Shown here: positions 4,634 through 10,494 of the stretch, one piece after another
Position numbering within the stretch: the first letter of the stretch is position 1
Layout: every line of letters begins with the position of its first letter
Assembly (NCBI GenBank): GCA_025774425.1
Contig: JALGWA010000056.1
Coordinates: 1 to 10,494 of the forward strand
Direction: 5' to 3'
DNA: 10,494 nt
Origin: a bacterium
GTDB taxonomy: Bacteria; Arandabacterota; Arandabacteria; Arandabacterales; JALGWA01
Notes under the pieces: generated by a model
Seen by the model: only the letters and a program-made list of their open reading frames with translations
Database searches by the model: none
Told to the model about the DNA's origin: nothing
Program-made: the position numbers and the translations under genes

Positions 4634-5674
4634 TTATGCATGCATTCCCTGAAACTGCTTCAGGAATCTCAGGTCATTGTCGTAGAGAACCCTCATGTTC
4701 TCTATGCCGTACTTGAGCAACGCCAGTCTCTCGACCCCCATGCCGAAGGCGAAGCCGGTCACGCTCCTCGGGTCATAGCCGGCGTGCCTGAACACATTGG
4801 GATGGACCATGCCGCAGCCCAGCACTTCGACCCATCCGGAGTTCTTGCACAACCTGCACCCCTTGCCGCCGCAGACGAGGCAGGAGATGTCCAGCTCGGC
4901 GCTCGGCTCGGTGAAGGGGAAGAAATGCGGCCTGAACCTGACACGCGTCTCCGTCCCGAAGATCTCGCGTGCGAATGCCGCCAGCGTCCCCTTGAGATCC
5001 GCCATGCTGACCTCGTAGTCCACGTACAGTCCTTCGACCTGGTAGAAGCTGATGACATGCGACGCGTCCGGGGTGTCCCGGCGGTGGCATCTGCCGGGCA
5101 CTATCACCCTGACCGGCGCCGGCTGGGACTTCATGACGCGAATCTGGGCCGGTGAGGTATGCGTTCGCAAGACCAGGCCGTCGGCGACGTAGAAGGAGTC
5201 GTGCTCATCCCGGGACGGATGCCACTCGGGCGTATTGAGGGCGTCGAAGTTGTTGTACTCGGTCTCGATCTCGGGCCCCTCGATCGAGGTGAAGCCCATC
5301 CCGAGGAACACCTCCATGATCTCCCGCATCATCTTGATCGTAGGGTGGCGGCTGCCGATCTCACGGGCTCTGCCGGGCAGGGTTATGTCTACGGACTCTT
5401 CGTGAAGGCTGGCCTCGTCGCGCGCAGCCTTGAGGGCGGCCTTGCGCGCGTCGATCTCGGCCGACAGGGCGCTCTTGGCCGCGTTGAGGAAGCGGCCGAG
5501 TTCCCTTCTCTCGTCGGGGCCCGCCTCGCCCAGTTTCCGGAGGAGCCCAGTCAGCAGGCCCTTGCGACCGAGGTACTTGACGCGGACGGCCTCGAGGTCT
5601 TCGAGGCTCTTCGCGGAAAGGATTTCCTCCTTTGCGTCGCTCTCTAGGCGCCTTGCCTCCTCACTGGGATCCAT
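4634..5674 (-). CDS. pheS: Phenylalanyl-tRNA synthetase alpha subunit
   Basis: This is the catalytic alpha subunit of PheRS, which makes Phe-AMP and Phe-tRNA. The 346-residue product has an N-terminal coiled-coil arm that binds tRNA (to about residue 85, with [11 protein letters not shown]), then the class II core: [19 protein letters not shown] (motif 1), [21 protein letters not shown] and FYQVEGL (motif 2), [10 protein letters not shown], a four-Cys loop (C265, C268, C273, C276) followed by GCGMVHPNV, and [17 protein letters not shown] (motif 3). The start overlaps the end of rplT by 14 nt, so translation is probably coupled. I prefer the ATG at 5674. A TTG at 5686 in the same frame would add MKRP and has a G-rich tract upstream, so it remains possible. 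All catalytic motifs are present. Confidence 0.97.
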
Positions 5675-6035
5675 AGGCCTTTTCAAGCGCCCCCTTTGCG
5701 GTCTGCACCACTTCCTTGAACGCCGCTTCGTCGTTCACCGCAAGGTCGGCGAGGATCTTCCTGTCGATTGCGACGCCGGCTTTCCTGAGGCCGTCCATCA
5801 GCCTCCCGTAACCGATGCCGTTCATCCTGGCCGCTGCGTTTATTCTCACTATCCACAGGGAACGCATGTCCCTCTTCTTGGTCCTTCTGTCGCGATACGC
5901 GTATGCGAGGGCCCGCCGCACGCTCTCGAGCGCCGTCCTGTAGAGTCTGTGCTTCGAGCCGACATAGCCTTTCGCGGCCTTCAGAACCTTCTTTCTCCTC
6001 CGCCTCGACTGGACGGAGCTCTTAGTTCTCGGCAT
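5661..6035 (-). CDS. rplT: 50S ribosomal protein L20 (bL20)
   Basis: L20 binds 23S rRNA and is needed early in 50S assembly; in other bacteria it also represses its own operon by binding mRNA. The 124-residue product matches the family over its whole length. It has a basic N-terminal arm ([19 protein letters not shown]), [50 protein letters not shown] and the globular end [13 protein letters not shown]. The ATG lies inside the end of infC (14-nt overlap), where rpmI would usually separate the two genes. A purine-rich stretch (GGGGGGAGAGGAAG) precedes the start. No regulatory mRNA structure could be made out by eye. Confidence 0.97.
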
Positions 6036-6618
6036 CTTCCTCTCCCCCCGCCTCCTTCGCCTTCTCGCCGGGCTTCTTCACGAAGCCGGGCTTGGGCGCG
6101 ACTATCATTATGAGGGCGTGGCCCTCCCGCTTGGGCCTGACCTCGACGTTGGCGATCTCCTCGAGGTCCTTGGCTACCCGCTCCATCACCCGCTGACCTA
6201 TATCGAGATGGGTAACTTCCCTGCCCCTGAATATCAAGGAAAACTTGACCTTGTCGTTGTGCTCGAGAAACCTGCGGGCGTGGTTCATCTTGAATTCGTA
6301 GTCGTGCTGCTCGATGCCCGGGCGCATCTTCACTTCCTTGACATGAACGACGTGCTGCTTCTTCTTCGCCTTCCGGGCCTTCTTGCTCTGCTCGTACTTG
6401 TACTTCCCGTAGTCCATTATGCGGCACACGGGCGGGCTCGCGTTGGGAGAGACCATGACGAGGTCGTATCCCCGGTCCCTGGCCGTCTCCAGCGCGTCCC
6501 TGGTGCTCATGACGCCGAGCACCTGGCCCGTCTCGTCGACGAGCCTCACCTGAGGAACCCTTATCCTCTCATTGATCCTCGCTTCTTTTCTCGTACTCCT
6601 GCTCACGGCCCTTTTGAT
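6022..6618 (-). CDS. infC: Translation initiation factor IF-3, probable AUC start
   Basis: IF3 binds the 30S subunit, keeps subunits apart and rejects wrong start codons. The product (198 residues from the AUC) has the N-domain [39 protein letters not shown], a lysine-rich linker ([10 protein letters not shown]), then the C-domain [29 protein letters not shown] and a conserved end, plus an acidic tail ([11 protein letters not shown]). No ATG is near the 5' end. A GTG at 6627 overlaps the Shine-Dalgarno itself. An ATC at 6618 lies 8 nt after a perfect AGGAGG (6627-6632), which makes AUC the best start; a GTG at 6606 is too far downstream. Rare start codons are known for infC (AUU in E. coli, AUC reported in Myxococcus) and let IF3 repress itself. 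The Shine-Dalgarno overlaps the thrS stop. Confidence 0.95.
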
Positions 6619-6624
6619 CTTGCC

Positions 6625-6632
6625 CACCTCCT
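6625..6632 (-). promoter_or_regulatory. Perfect Shine-Dalgarno that decides the infC start
   Basis: AGGAGGTG is fully complementary to the usual 16S rRNA 3' end and overlaps the TAG stop of thrS. It sits 8 nt before ATC (6616-6618) but runs into the GTG at 6625-6627, which therefore cannot be its start codon. A strong Shine-Dalgarno joined to a poor start codon is the arrangement expected for IF3 self-regulation. Confidence 0.75.
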
Positions 6633-8466
6633 AGTCCAACGAGCGAGCTTCGATCTCGCTCTTGACCATTCCGACGAATTCCTCGAGCGGCACGGCCCCC
6701 TTGTCCGTCCCGCCCCTCTTGCGCACGGCGACGGTTCGGGAGGCCCTCTCCCGTTCTCCGACAACGAGGATGTATGGAATCTTCTCCATGGTTTTCTGTC
6801 TGATCCTGTAGCCCAGCTTCTGCTGCGATGAAGTCGTCTCCGCCCGCACCCCGCCGGCGGCGAGGGCATTGCACACGTCGCCGGCGTATTGCTCGACCTC
6901 TTCCTTGACCGGGAGGACCGAAACCTGCACGGGGGACAGCCACAACGGGAAAGCGCCGCCGTAATGCTCGATCAGCACGCCGAAGAAGCGTTCGATGCCC
7001 CCGAGGACGGTTCTGTGAATCATGACGACGTTGTGCGGGCGGCCGTCCTCGCCGACGTACTCCACGCCGAGCCGGCCGGGGAGGTTGGGGCCGTAGAAGA
7101 CGGCCTCCCCCTTCGCGACGCGGTAGTCGATGCCCTTGCGCTCGAGCGCCCCCGCGAGCGCCCGTTCCGCCTCCTCCCAGTCGCGCGGCGAACCGGCGTA
7201 GTCCTGCGGCCGCGCAGGGTCACGGACGCTCAAGTCCACCTGGTAGTCCTTGAAACCGAGGGCCGAGAGCAGGTACTCGTAGAGGTCGATGACGCCGATG
7301 ACCTCGTCCACGATCTGCTCGCGCGTACAGAATATATGGGCGTCGTCCTGCGTGAAACCCCTCACCCTCATCAGACCGTGCAGCGTCCCCGACCTCTCCC
7401 TCCTGTAGACCGTCCCCATCTCCGCGTATCTTATCGGCAGGTCCCTGTAACTCCTTTTACGCGATTTGTACACCAGGATGTGGCCGACGCAGTTCATGGG
7501 TTTCAACACGTAGTCTTCGTCGTCGACCTTGAGCACGTACATGTTTTCTCTGTAGTAGTCGAAGTGGCCGGAGGCCTTCCAGAGGCCGGCCCTTGCTATG
7601 TGGGGCGTGTACAGCAGGCGATAACCCCTCTTGACGTGTTCGTCCTCCCAGAACCTCTCGATCAGCTTCCGTATGAGCGAGCCGTTGGCATGCCAGTACA
7701 CGAGCCCCGCCCCGGCCTCTTCGCGAATCGAGTAGAGATCGAGATCGATCCCCAGCCGGCGGTGGTCCCGCTTCTTCGCCTCTTCGAGTCTCCCCAGATA
7801 GTCCTCCAGCTGCGCCTCGTCCTCGAAGGCAGTCCCGTAGATCCGCTGCAGCATCGGCCGCCTCTCGTCGCCCCTCCAGTAGGCGCCGGCCACGCTCGTC
7901 AGCTTGAACGACTTGAGCCGACCCGTCGTCGGAAGATGGGGGCCCCGGCAGAGGTCGCTGAACTCGGCCTGCCTGTAAATGCTCACCGTCTCGTCCGTCA
8001 ACTCCTCGAGGAGCTCGACCTTGAAGCGCTCACCCGCCTGAGAGAAGACATCGACGGCCTCGGCCCTCGGGACTTCGACCCTCTCGATCGGGATGTCCTC
8101 GGCCACGATCTTCTTCATCTCCTCCTCGATGCGCGGGAGGTCCTCCTCGGTCAGGTGATGCGGGAGATCGAAGTCGTAATAGAAGCCGTCCATGATGGCC
8201 GGCCCGATGCCGAGTCTCGCCTGCGGGAAGAGACGCTTGACCGCCTGGGCCATGACATGCGACGCCGTGTGGCGGTAGACTTCGCGGGCCTCCTCGGAGT
8301 CGAACGTCAGGAACTCGACGCTCGCGTCCTCCTGCAGCACGGTCGAAAGGCCGATCACCTCGGTTCCGACGCGGGCGGCGATGAGGAGCCTTTGCGTTTC
8401 TCTCTCGACCGCACGCGCCCGCTCCCTGAGATCGGTGCCGGCTTTGAGGTCATAGACTAGTGCCAT
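6631..8466 (-). CDS. thrS: Threonyl-tRNA synthetase with an internal catalytic-core deletion
   Basis: ThrRS charges tRNA-Thr and clears Ser-tRNA-Thr. The 611-residue product (E. coli 642) has a shortened TGS domain (1-56), the editing domain with HTASH (H66, H70) and CRGPH (C173, H177), the class II core with the zinc ligands C326 (KPMNCVGH), H377 (FTQDDAHIF) and H484 (VMIHR), motif 2 (RYAEMGTVYRRERSG), motif 3 (GGIERFFGVLIEHY) and the C-terminal anticodon-binding domain. Two things are odd. After FYGP (457-460) the protein goes straight to NLPGR, so about 23 residues are missing, including positions equal to E. coli K465 and Q479. The ATG also lies 8 nt after the tRNA CCA end with no ribosome binding site. 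The family is certain; whether this copy is active is doubtful. Confidence 0.93.
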   Translation of the reverse strand: MALVYDLKAGTDLRERARAVERETQRLLIAARVGTEVIGLSTVLQEDASVEFLTFDSEEAREVYRHTASHVMAQAVKRLFPQARLGIGPAIMDGFYYDFDLPHHLTEEDLPRIEEEMKKIVAEDIPIERVEVPRAEAVDVFSQAGERFKVELLEELTDETVSIYRQAEFSDLCRGPHLPTTGRLKSFKLTSVAGAYWRGDERRPMLQRIYGTAFEDEAQLEDYLGRLEEAKKRDHRRLGIDLDLYSIREEAGAGLVYWHANGSLIRKLIERFWEDEHVKRGYRLLYTPHIARAGLWKASGHFDYYRENMYVLKVDDEDYVLKPMNCVGHILVYKSRKRSYRDLPIRYAEMGTVYRRERSGTLHGLMRVRGFTQDDAHIFCTREQIVDEVIGVIDLYEYLLSALGFKDYQVDLSVRDPARPQDYAGSPRDWEEAERALAGALERKGIDYRVAKGEAVFYGPNLPGRLGVEYVGEDGRPHNVVMIHRTVLGGIERFFGVLIEHYGGAFPLWLSPVQVSVLPVKEEVEQYAGDVCNALAAGGVRAETTSSQQKLGYRIRQKTMEKIPYILVVGERERASRTVAVRKRGGTDKGAVPLEEFVGMVKSEIEARSLD

Positions 8467-8474
8467 AATGAAAA

Positions 8475-8551
8475 TGGTGGGCGATACTGGACTTGAACCA
8501 GTGACTTCCTGCTTGTCGAGCAGGCACTCTGACCAACTGAGCTAATCGCCC
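8475..8551 (-). tRNA. tRNA-Val (GAC), CCA encoded, C at position 33
   Basis: A complete cloverleaf can be drawn: acceptor GGGCGAT/ATCGCCC, D arm GCTC-AGTTGGTCA-GAGT (closing G-U), anticodon stem CCTGC/GCAGG, variable loop AAGTC, T arm ACTGG-TTCAAGT-CCAGT, discriminator A, then CCA in the DNA. The anticodon loop is TCGACAA, so positions 34-36 are GAC (valine), and A35, C36 and A73 fit known valine identity. Position 33 is C where almost all tRNAs have U. The thrS start codon follows 8 nt after CCA. The gene probably shares a transcript with thrS, so 3' processing would free the thrS mRNA. Confidence 0.93.
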
Positions 8552-8641: not shown

Positions 8642-10494
8642 CTAGGAAGCACGCTCGCCCTCGTCCTCCCCGGCGGCCGTCCCTTCCTCTGCGTCTGCAC
8701 CGGCCGGCGGGGCCCCCTCGCCCGTGTCGTCTCCCGGCTCGTCCGTTCCCGCCTGCGCCTTATCGGGCTCCGCCGGGGTCTCGTCCACGGGCCGAGTCTC
8801 CGCCTCCGGGGCTTCGGCCTCCTGGGATGCAGCCGCTGCCGCCTCCTCGGCCCGGGCCTCGCCCGCCGCTTCCGAAGCGGCCGGCTCTTCCGCCACCCCC
8901 TCTTCCTTCACGGTGACATGGTCACCCACGGTTATCTTCCTCGGACCGTACTTCTTCATGTATTCCTCGATCTCGTCGCGCTCCTGGCCGTCCAGGTACT
9001 CCTTGACCGAAAGCAGTATCTTGCGCGCGTCGGGATCTATCTTGATTACCCTGAGAGGCAGTTCGTCCCCCGGCTTGAAGACCTCCGACGGCCGCGAGAT
9101 GCCGTCCTGGCCGAGGTGCGAGAGAGGCACGAACCCCTCGACATCCTCCTCGAGCTCGACGACGACGCCTCTGTCATGGACCTTGGTGATCGTGCCCCTG
9201 GTCACGGTGCCGGCGGCGTAGGTCTCCATCAGCTTGGTCCAGGGATTCTCTTCGATCTGCTTGAGACCCAGCGAGATCTTCCGGTTGTCTTTGTCCACGC
9301 CGAGCACGACGACGTCGACCTTGTCCCCCTTCTTGAGAATCTCACTGGGATGCCTGATCCTCTTGGTCCAGGACATGTCCGAGATGTGCACCAGGCCCTC
9401 GATACCCGACTCGATCTCGACGAAGGCGCCGAAGTTGGTGAGGTTCCTGACCTTGCCGACGATTCTGCTGCCGACCGGGTACCTCTCCTCGAGGGTTTCC
9501 CACGGGTCCGGCTCGATCTGCTTGAGACCGAGGGATATCTTCTCGTGCTCCTTGTCTATCTTGAGCACGACGGCCTCGATCATGTCGCCTATGGCGACAA
9601 CCTTCGACGGGTGCTTGACATGCTTGGTCCAGGACATCTCCGACTTGTGAATCAGTCCCTCGACGCCCTTCTCCAGCTCGACGAAAGCCCCGTAGTCGGT
9701 GATGCTGACGACCTTGCCCCTGACCTTGTCGCCGACCGGGTACTTCTCCTCGATGTTCTCCCACGGGTACGGGGTCAGCTGCTTGAGGCCGAGCGAGATC
9801 CGCTCGCGCTCCTTGTCGAAGTCGAGCACCATCACCTTGACCTTGTCGCCGATGGCGACCATCTCCGAAGGATGGCTGACCCTGCCCCACGCGAGATCGG
9901 TTATGTGCAGCAGGCCGTCGATGCCGCCGAGGTCGATGAACGCGCCGAAGTCGGTGATGTTCTTGACGATGCCTTCGCGCGTCTGCCCCTTCTCCAGCTC
10001 GGCGAGGAGGGCGACTTTCATCTTCTCTCTCTCCTCCTCGAGCACGACCCGTCTCGAGACGACGACATTGCGCCTGCGCTTGTTTATCTTGATCACCTTC
10101 ACCCTGATCATCTCGCCGATGAGATCATCGAGGTTCTGGATCTGCCTGATCCCGACCTGGGAGCCCGGCAGGAACGCCTCGACCCCGAACAGGTCGACGA
10201 CGGCGCCGCCCTTGATCCTCCTCATCAGCTTGCCCTCGACGACCTTGGAGTTGTCGTAGGCGTCCTTGATCGTTCCCCAGACCCTGAGGAAGTCCGCCCT
10301 CTGCTTCGACAGCACGATCAGGCCGTCCTGGTTCTCCATCTTCTCGAGATAGACGTCCACGTCGTCGCCGACGCACACCGTCGGACTGTCGCCGAACTCC
10401 GAGAGCGGGATCACCCCCTCCGACTTGAAGCCGACATCGACGAGCACTTCGCTCTCGGAGACCTTCACGACGCGCCCCTTGACTATGTCGCCTT
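8642..10494 (-). CDS. rpsA: 30S ribosomal protein S1 (5' end beyond the window)
   Basis: S1 binds mRNA and helps unfold and load it on the 30S subunit. The frame is open at the right edge (reading GDIVKGRVVKVSESEVLVDV...), so the GTG at 10468 is an internal valine and the true start lies outside. Numbering from that GTG, six S1 repeats are visible: R1 up to about 55, R2 75-140 (GAVVDLFGVEAFLPGSQVG), R3 161-230, R4 246-317, R5 332-404 and R6 419-489. R3-R5 carry the RNA-binding consensus (TDFGAF, TDYGAF, TNFGAF). Residues 522-608 are an acidic Ala/Glu/Pro/Gly-rich tail, probably disordered. The six-repeat layout identifies ribosomal S1 rather than a smaller S1-domain protein. The gene precedes the tRNA/thrS unit by 90 bp. 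Confidence 0.96.
   Translation of the reverse strand, partial: GDIVKGRVVKVSESEVLVDVGFKSEGVIPLSEFGDSPTVCVGDDVDVYLEKMENQDGLIVLSKQRADFLRVWGTIKDAYDNSKVVEGKLMRRIKGGAVVDLFGVEAFLPGSQVGIRQIQNLDDLIGEMIRVKVIKINKRRRNVVVSRRVVLEEEREKMKVALLAELEKGQTREGIVKNITDFGAFIDLGGIDGLLHITDLAWGRVSHPSEMVAIGDKVKVMVLDFDKERERISLGLKQLTPYPWENIEEKYPVGDKVRGKVVSITDYGAFVELEKGVEGLIHKSEMSWTKHVKHPSKVVAIGDMIEAVVLKIDKEHEKISLGLKQIEPDPWETLEERYPVGSRIVGKVRNLTNFGAFVEIESGIEGLVHISDMSWTKRIRHPSEILKKGDKVDVVVLGVDKDNRKISLGLKQIEENPWTKLMETYAAGTVTRGTITKVHDRGVVVELEEDVEGFVPLSHLGQDGISRPSEVFKPGDELPLRVIKIDPDARKILLSVKEYLDGQERDEIEEYMKKYGPRKITVGDHVTVKEEGVAEEPAASEAAGEARAEEAAAAASQEAEAPEAETRPVDETPAEPDKAQAGTDEPGDDTGEGAPPAGADAEEGTAAGEDEGERAS
8645..8905 (-). other. 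Segment encoding the acidic low-complexity tail of S1
   Basis: The last 87 codons of rpsA encode almost only Ala, Glu, Pro, Gly, Asp and Thr (for example EEPAASEAAGEARAEEAAAA), with no S1 fold and strong negative charge. It follows the end of the sixth repeat and a short linker (KKYGPRKITVGDHVTV). It is in frame with the gene and ends at its stop codon. Confidence 0.8.
9200..10000 (-). repeat. 261-bp periodic repeats within rpsA (S1 repeats 3-5)
   Basis: S1 repeats 3, 4 and 5 are alike enough to show at DNA level. The plus-strand string CTGCTTGAG recurs at 9257, 9518 and 9779, exactly 261 bp (87 codons) apart, within the coding for SLGLKQ at the end of each repeat. This is tandem domain duplication within the gene, not a mobile repeat. 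Confidence 0.85.

Follow-up and report, generated by a model that had tools for sequence, protein, structure and literature searches.

An in-frame 69-nucleotide gap in the catalytic core of a threonyl-tRNA synthetase gene from an Arandabacterota draft genome: probable artefact or broken allele

Background

Can a threonyl-tRNA synthetase (ThrRS) spare part of its active site, or is a gene that appears to do so more plausibly a damaged copy of an ordinary one? This question is raised by a stretch of 10,494 nucleotides (nt), the whole of contig positions 1 to 10,494 analyzed here (JALGWA010000056.1, forward strand; hereafter the window), from a draft environmental genome of the bacterial phylum Arandabacterota (GCA_025774425.1; 476 contigs, estimated completeness 83%). 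On its minus strand, at 6631-8466, the window carries thrS, an open frame for a ThrRS of 611 amino acids (aa) whose catalytic core is 23 residues short. A sequence-only reading had pointed out the gap and offered two origins for it, namely a real deletion that inactivates or alters the enzyme, or a deletion made in sequencing or assembly. Both origins are still standing after the present analysis, in which we lean towards the second: the gene would be an ordinary housekeeping thrS, and the 69 nt lacking from its assembled copy were probably lost in the library or the assembly.

Results and discussion

The loss and what it removes

The product of the window gene is identified as ThrRS by its protein and PDB homologues and by TIGR00418, which it matches with 631.1 bits, well above the curated equivalog cut-off of 383.65. 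This match falls in two stretches, and the best PDB matches are likewise broken in two at about residue 462. The closest eight homologues (P0002-P0009), with 78-81% identity over aligned columns and 75-78% in the protein search, are all 634 aa long, and aligning them with the window protein opens in the latter a single gap of 23 residues after P460. The difference in length (634-611) is thus exactly 23 codons or 69 nt, and the reading frame is preserved, as had been supposed. The codon of P460 (CCC) occupies 7089-7087 and that of N461 (AAC) 7086-7084, which bears out a minus-strand junction at 7086/7087, where FYGP (residues 457-460) runs directly into NLPGRLGVEYVGEDG; this placement may shift by up to 3 nt if the parent sequence carried CAA at both ends of the lost segment. 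The window sequence is free of any N.

Aligned to the Escherichia coli enzyme (1QF6), the lost stretch corresponds to E. coli residues 465-487, for which the window protein has no counterpart. Y462 is retained, and K465, Q479 and Q484, which we take to be active-site residues, lie inside the stretch as the earlier numbering had it; with all 23 positions gone, the window ThrRS has no equivalents of these three. In the AlphaFold2 model of a full-length sister the segment forms two strands (461-467 and 473-481), a beta-hairpin that belongs to the class II catalytic core and bears active-site residues. The short protein is predicted with a pTM of 0.54 as against 0.79 for the sister, and a mean pLDDT of 81.7 as against 88.2, the models being built from 46 of the 122 homologues described below (alignments A2 and A3).

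Outside the gap the protein is a regular bacterial ThrRS. The 5' part of the gene (7087-8466, minus strand) encodes the N-terminal and editing domains and the catalytic core up to FYGP, and the 3' part (6631-7086, minus strand) the end of the core, with zinc ligand H484 and motif 3, followed by the anticodon-binding domain. The residues that we presume to be zinc ligands (C326, H377 and H484; in E. coli C334, H385 and H511), those assigned in the same way to editing (H66, H70, C173 and H177 of the HxxxH and CxxxH motifs) and the arginines of motifs 2 and 3 (R355 and R493) are all kept and are invariant in a 47-sequence alignment, in keeping with the initial impression that these elements are intact. 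The window protein agrees with 1QF6 and TIGR00418 in the order of its domains, in its zinc ligands, editing residues and class II motif arginines, and in its anticodon domain. With the Ser-tRNA(Thr) hydrolases or ThrRS-ed editing proteins it would have in common a loss of catalysis, as is expected here, beside which other functions might persist. Unlike these, the window protein keeps nearly the whole catalytic core, and it matches their model NF011500 weakly and over residues 505-604 only, with 60.3 bits against a cut-off of 362.

How rare is the short form?

All 23 residues are kept in each of 115 related loci, drawn from relatives and genome contigs and including at least five repeat entries of the same genes, and in each of 122 other homologous proteins recovered by two protein searches. 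Equivalents of Q479 and Q484 occur in all 122 and that of K465 in 116; the ThrRS of Staphylococcus aureus has no glutamine at the Q479 position, so that Q479 alone is not universal. A search with the 40 residues centred on the junction scored 41 candidates and gave 40 hits, led by the window protein (80 bits; next protein 58), and the short form was not found among the other 39, all of which carry the segment. At the DNA level, of eight genomes of the phylum that were examined, the window's own has the junction pattern and the other seven do not. The first protein search listed 120 of 7,999 scored candidates, and rare, more distant short forms could escape it. Judged from these alignments, the 23-residue loss is not ordinary variation among ThrRS. 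A short form shared by a lineage, which had been considered as an outcome, is unsupported because no close homologue among all the proteins, loci and genomes sampled has it.

Orthology and constraint

Within the reach of their contigs the relatives keep the order rpsA, tRNA-Val, thrS, infC, rplT, pheS, pheT, and the neighbourhood of the window thrS matches it. On account of this conserved gene order, we take the window gene to be the syntenic counterpart of housekeeping thrS, an orthologue rather than a spare paralogue. Most of its sequence also appears to be under constraint. There are 217 columns invariant in 41 other sequences, 20 of them within the gap, and the window thrS breaks two of the 197 outside it, as compared with zero to four broken by the others; pseudogene decay was therefore rejected. 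Three private changes (447, 450 and 452) lie shortly upstream of the junction, but elsewhere four are found within 12 residues, and no cluster at the junction exceeds the levels seen in the rest of the gene. A chimera of two organisms joined at the junction also found no support, since third-position GC content is alike before and after it (0.867 and 0.849) and both parts are close to the same sister group (82% and 79% identity for P0002); the later part is the more diverged from the sisters (74-79% identity against 79-82%). Taken together, the alignments indicate that the gene has been under constraint for most of its history, and a mostly constrained housekeeping orthologue favours an artefact, or else an allele of recent origin.

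A probable loss outside the cell

The course of events that we think probable is that the working thrS of the species is most likely full length, and that the loss most likely arose outside the cell. A molecule that was chimeric, or from which the hairpin had been skipped, would have formed in a presumably thinly covered metagenome library and been kept by the assembler. The fragmentary state of the source, with its many contigs and incomplete gene set, was counted in favour of such an origin. The ends of the segment offer a possible route. In five of six relatives (all but locus L114) it is bounded by CAA at both ends, which fits the earlier suggestion that a CAA microhomology may have flanked the loss. 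In three of the six (L116, L117 and L118) the 69-nt segment is predicted to fold with a 7-bp stem 1 nt in from both ends, the folding having used RNA parameters without a significance test. Such a stem could favour skipping by a polymerase, and a skip between the CAA repeats would yield the observed product, whether it happened in vivo or while the library was amplified.

Several observations weigh against this reading, however. Strongest among them is that the assembly does not appear to drop sequence generally. We compared open reading frames (ORFs) between 329,387 bases of the window's genome (60 of its 476 contigs plus the window) and 546,326 bases of a same-order relative (G001); of 62 hits at E<=1e-25, 23 were dropped for identity below 45% or length below 100, leaving 39 pairs with 12,315 aligned columns. 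In these, no pair but that of thrS shows a gap of 10 or more residues; smaller gaps, of 6-9 residues, number five, lie in poorly conserved flanks and run in both directions. The frames were called mechanically, the window itself supplied seven of the 39 pairs, an antisense frame among them, and one alignment stretch was read per pair, so that a gap splitting an alignment would escape. The other genes of the window align without a comparable gap, rpsA showing scattered gaps and a variable tail. For the part of the genome compared, a generally deletion-prone assembly is thus unsupported. Secondly, the flanks of the segment in the relatives share only 2-3 nt and not the long repeat that a collapse in assembly would need, which makes a k-mer repeat collapse unlikely and means that some reads probably carry the junction. 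Thirdly, the loss is in frame, which chance would give one time in three, and removes one whole hairpin.

Finally, the 460 residues up to the junction hold 20 private changes and the 151 beyond it hold 15 (p 0.015, one of eight tests and without correction). The control comprised eight sequences including the window's, P0009 being omitted because it nearly duplicates P0008. The seven sisters have 1-8 such changes per 151 residues after the junction and 6-19 before it. Fourteen of the 15 lie beyond residue 512, in the anticodon-binding part, and the mean identity of the window protein to the outer group (0.670) is the lowest among nine sisters (0.678-0.695). These figures are a mild hint of some relaxed constraint and speak mildly against a gene free of all decay. 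They slightly lower the odds of an artefact and slightly raise those of a hidden second copy or a functional short form.

A possible deletion in the cell

Should the deletion be genuine, it would most readily be understood as a recent allele in the sampled population, belonging to a minority or dying lineage or mixed with intact cells, and specifying an enzyme predicted to be inactive. Deletion between short repeats is a usual type of mutation in vivo, and the CAA ends in the relatives fit it. The largely constrained remainder of thrS is what a recent event predicts, and an assembly that is otherwise clean where checked suits a real change in the DNA. Yet thrS is essential, and with no second copy seen such a cell should not grow; moreover, where paths compete, the one that an assembler retains is normally that of the majority. 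On balance we regard a recent allele as unlikely, second in probability to an artefact.

A fixed deletion would call for another thrS, intact and located in a part of the genome that was not assembled. Neither a second thrS nor the missing piece in a new place was found when the draft was searched with PF00587 and, at E values up to 10, with a full-length sister protein. The search that had been proposed for another copy thus came out negative, yet this result cannot separate a real deletion from an artefact. The seryl- and prolyl-tRNA synthetases (SerRS and ProRS), themselves essential class II enzymes and both present in the four relatives tested, were likewise not found in the draft, so the missing second thrS carries little weight and the gene could be hidden; the completeness estimate may itself be flattering. 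Among the matches listed, two of 59 other genomes (G035 and G059) have two ThrRS-like places, whereas none of six same-order relatives has a second synthetase. The mild excess of private changes past the junction would fit relaxed constraint, but it is the syntenic copy that bears the damage, and its invariant columns are nearly all unbroken. We consider a hidden second thrS distinctly improbable, more so than a recent allele.

A separate observation is that five same-order relatives encode a further protein, in frames of 502-618 aa, whose match to the window ThrRS is confined to roughly residues 9-190 of the latter, with E values of 2e-26 to 8e-25 (G001:C76, G002:C391, G003:C60, G004:C3 and G005:C263); none was seen for the window's genome (G000) among the matches listed.

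That the short protein charges tRNA without the hairpin, or is a ThrRS-like protein serving editing or regulation only, is very improbable, and it is very unlikely to be the working ThrRS of the species.

Neighbouring genes

Upstream of thrS on the same minus strand lie a tRNA-Val(GAC) gene (8475-8551), which holds this position in each of five loci scanned from relatives as well, and rpsA (8642-10468), for ribosomal protein S1. Downstream are infC (6022-6627), for initiation factor IF-3, and rplT (5661-6035), for ribosomal protein L20, both again on the minus strand. The three protein genes were delimited as ORFs and are supported by the relatives' gene order, and the names rpsA, infC and rplT are those we presume from the sequences. 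The infC and rplT frames overlap (within 5661-6627), with no rpmI, the gene for bL35, between them, and a motif search recognized no bL35-like frame either in the window or at the loci L114, L116, L117 and L118. We considered the missing rpmI as a sign of further deletions and rejected it, as the relatives are arranged likewise and bL35 is encoded elsewhere: PF01632 places it on a contig other than that of thrS in all eight genomes tested (contig C269 in the window's own). In one relative (G002; L116:3743-3958) a six-residue unit, DE(A/V)PK(A/V), occurs 12 times as a repeat at the C-terminus of IF-3.

Implications

If the deletion were real and fixed, either a class II synthetase would be able to spare an active-site hairpin, or a catalytically dead ThrRS would have been retained. 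It is conceivable, though we give it very little credence, that such a short protein is kept for tRNA binding and Ser-tRNA(Thr) editing, or for weakened charging, beside a second, unassembled ThrRS; the faster change of the part that binds the anticodon would in that case reflect a new role. The more sober lesson is one of caution. When an essential gene in a draft metagenome-derived genome shows a gap that is clean and in frame, this can mimic biology, and is here most likely an artefact or a broken allele.
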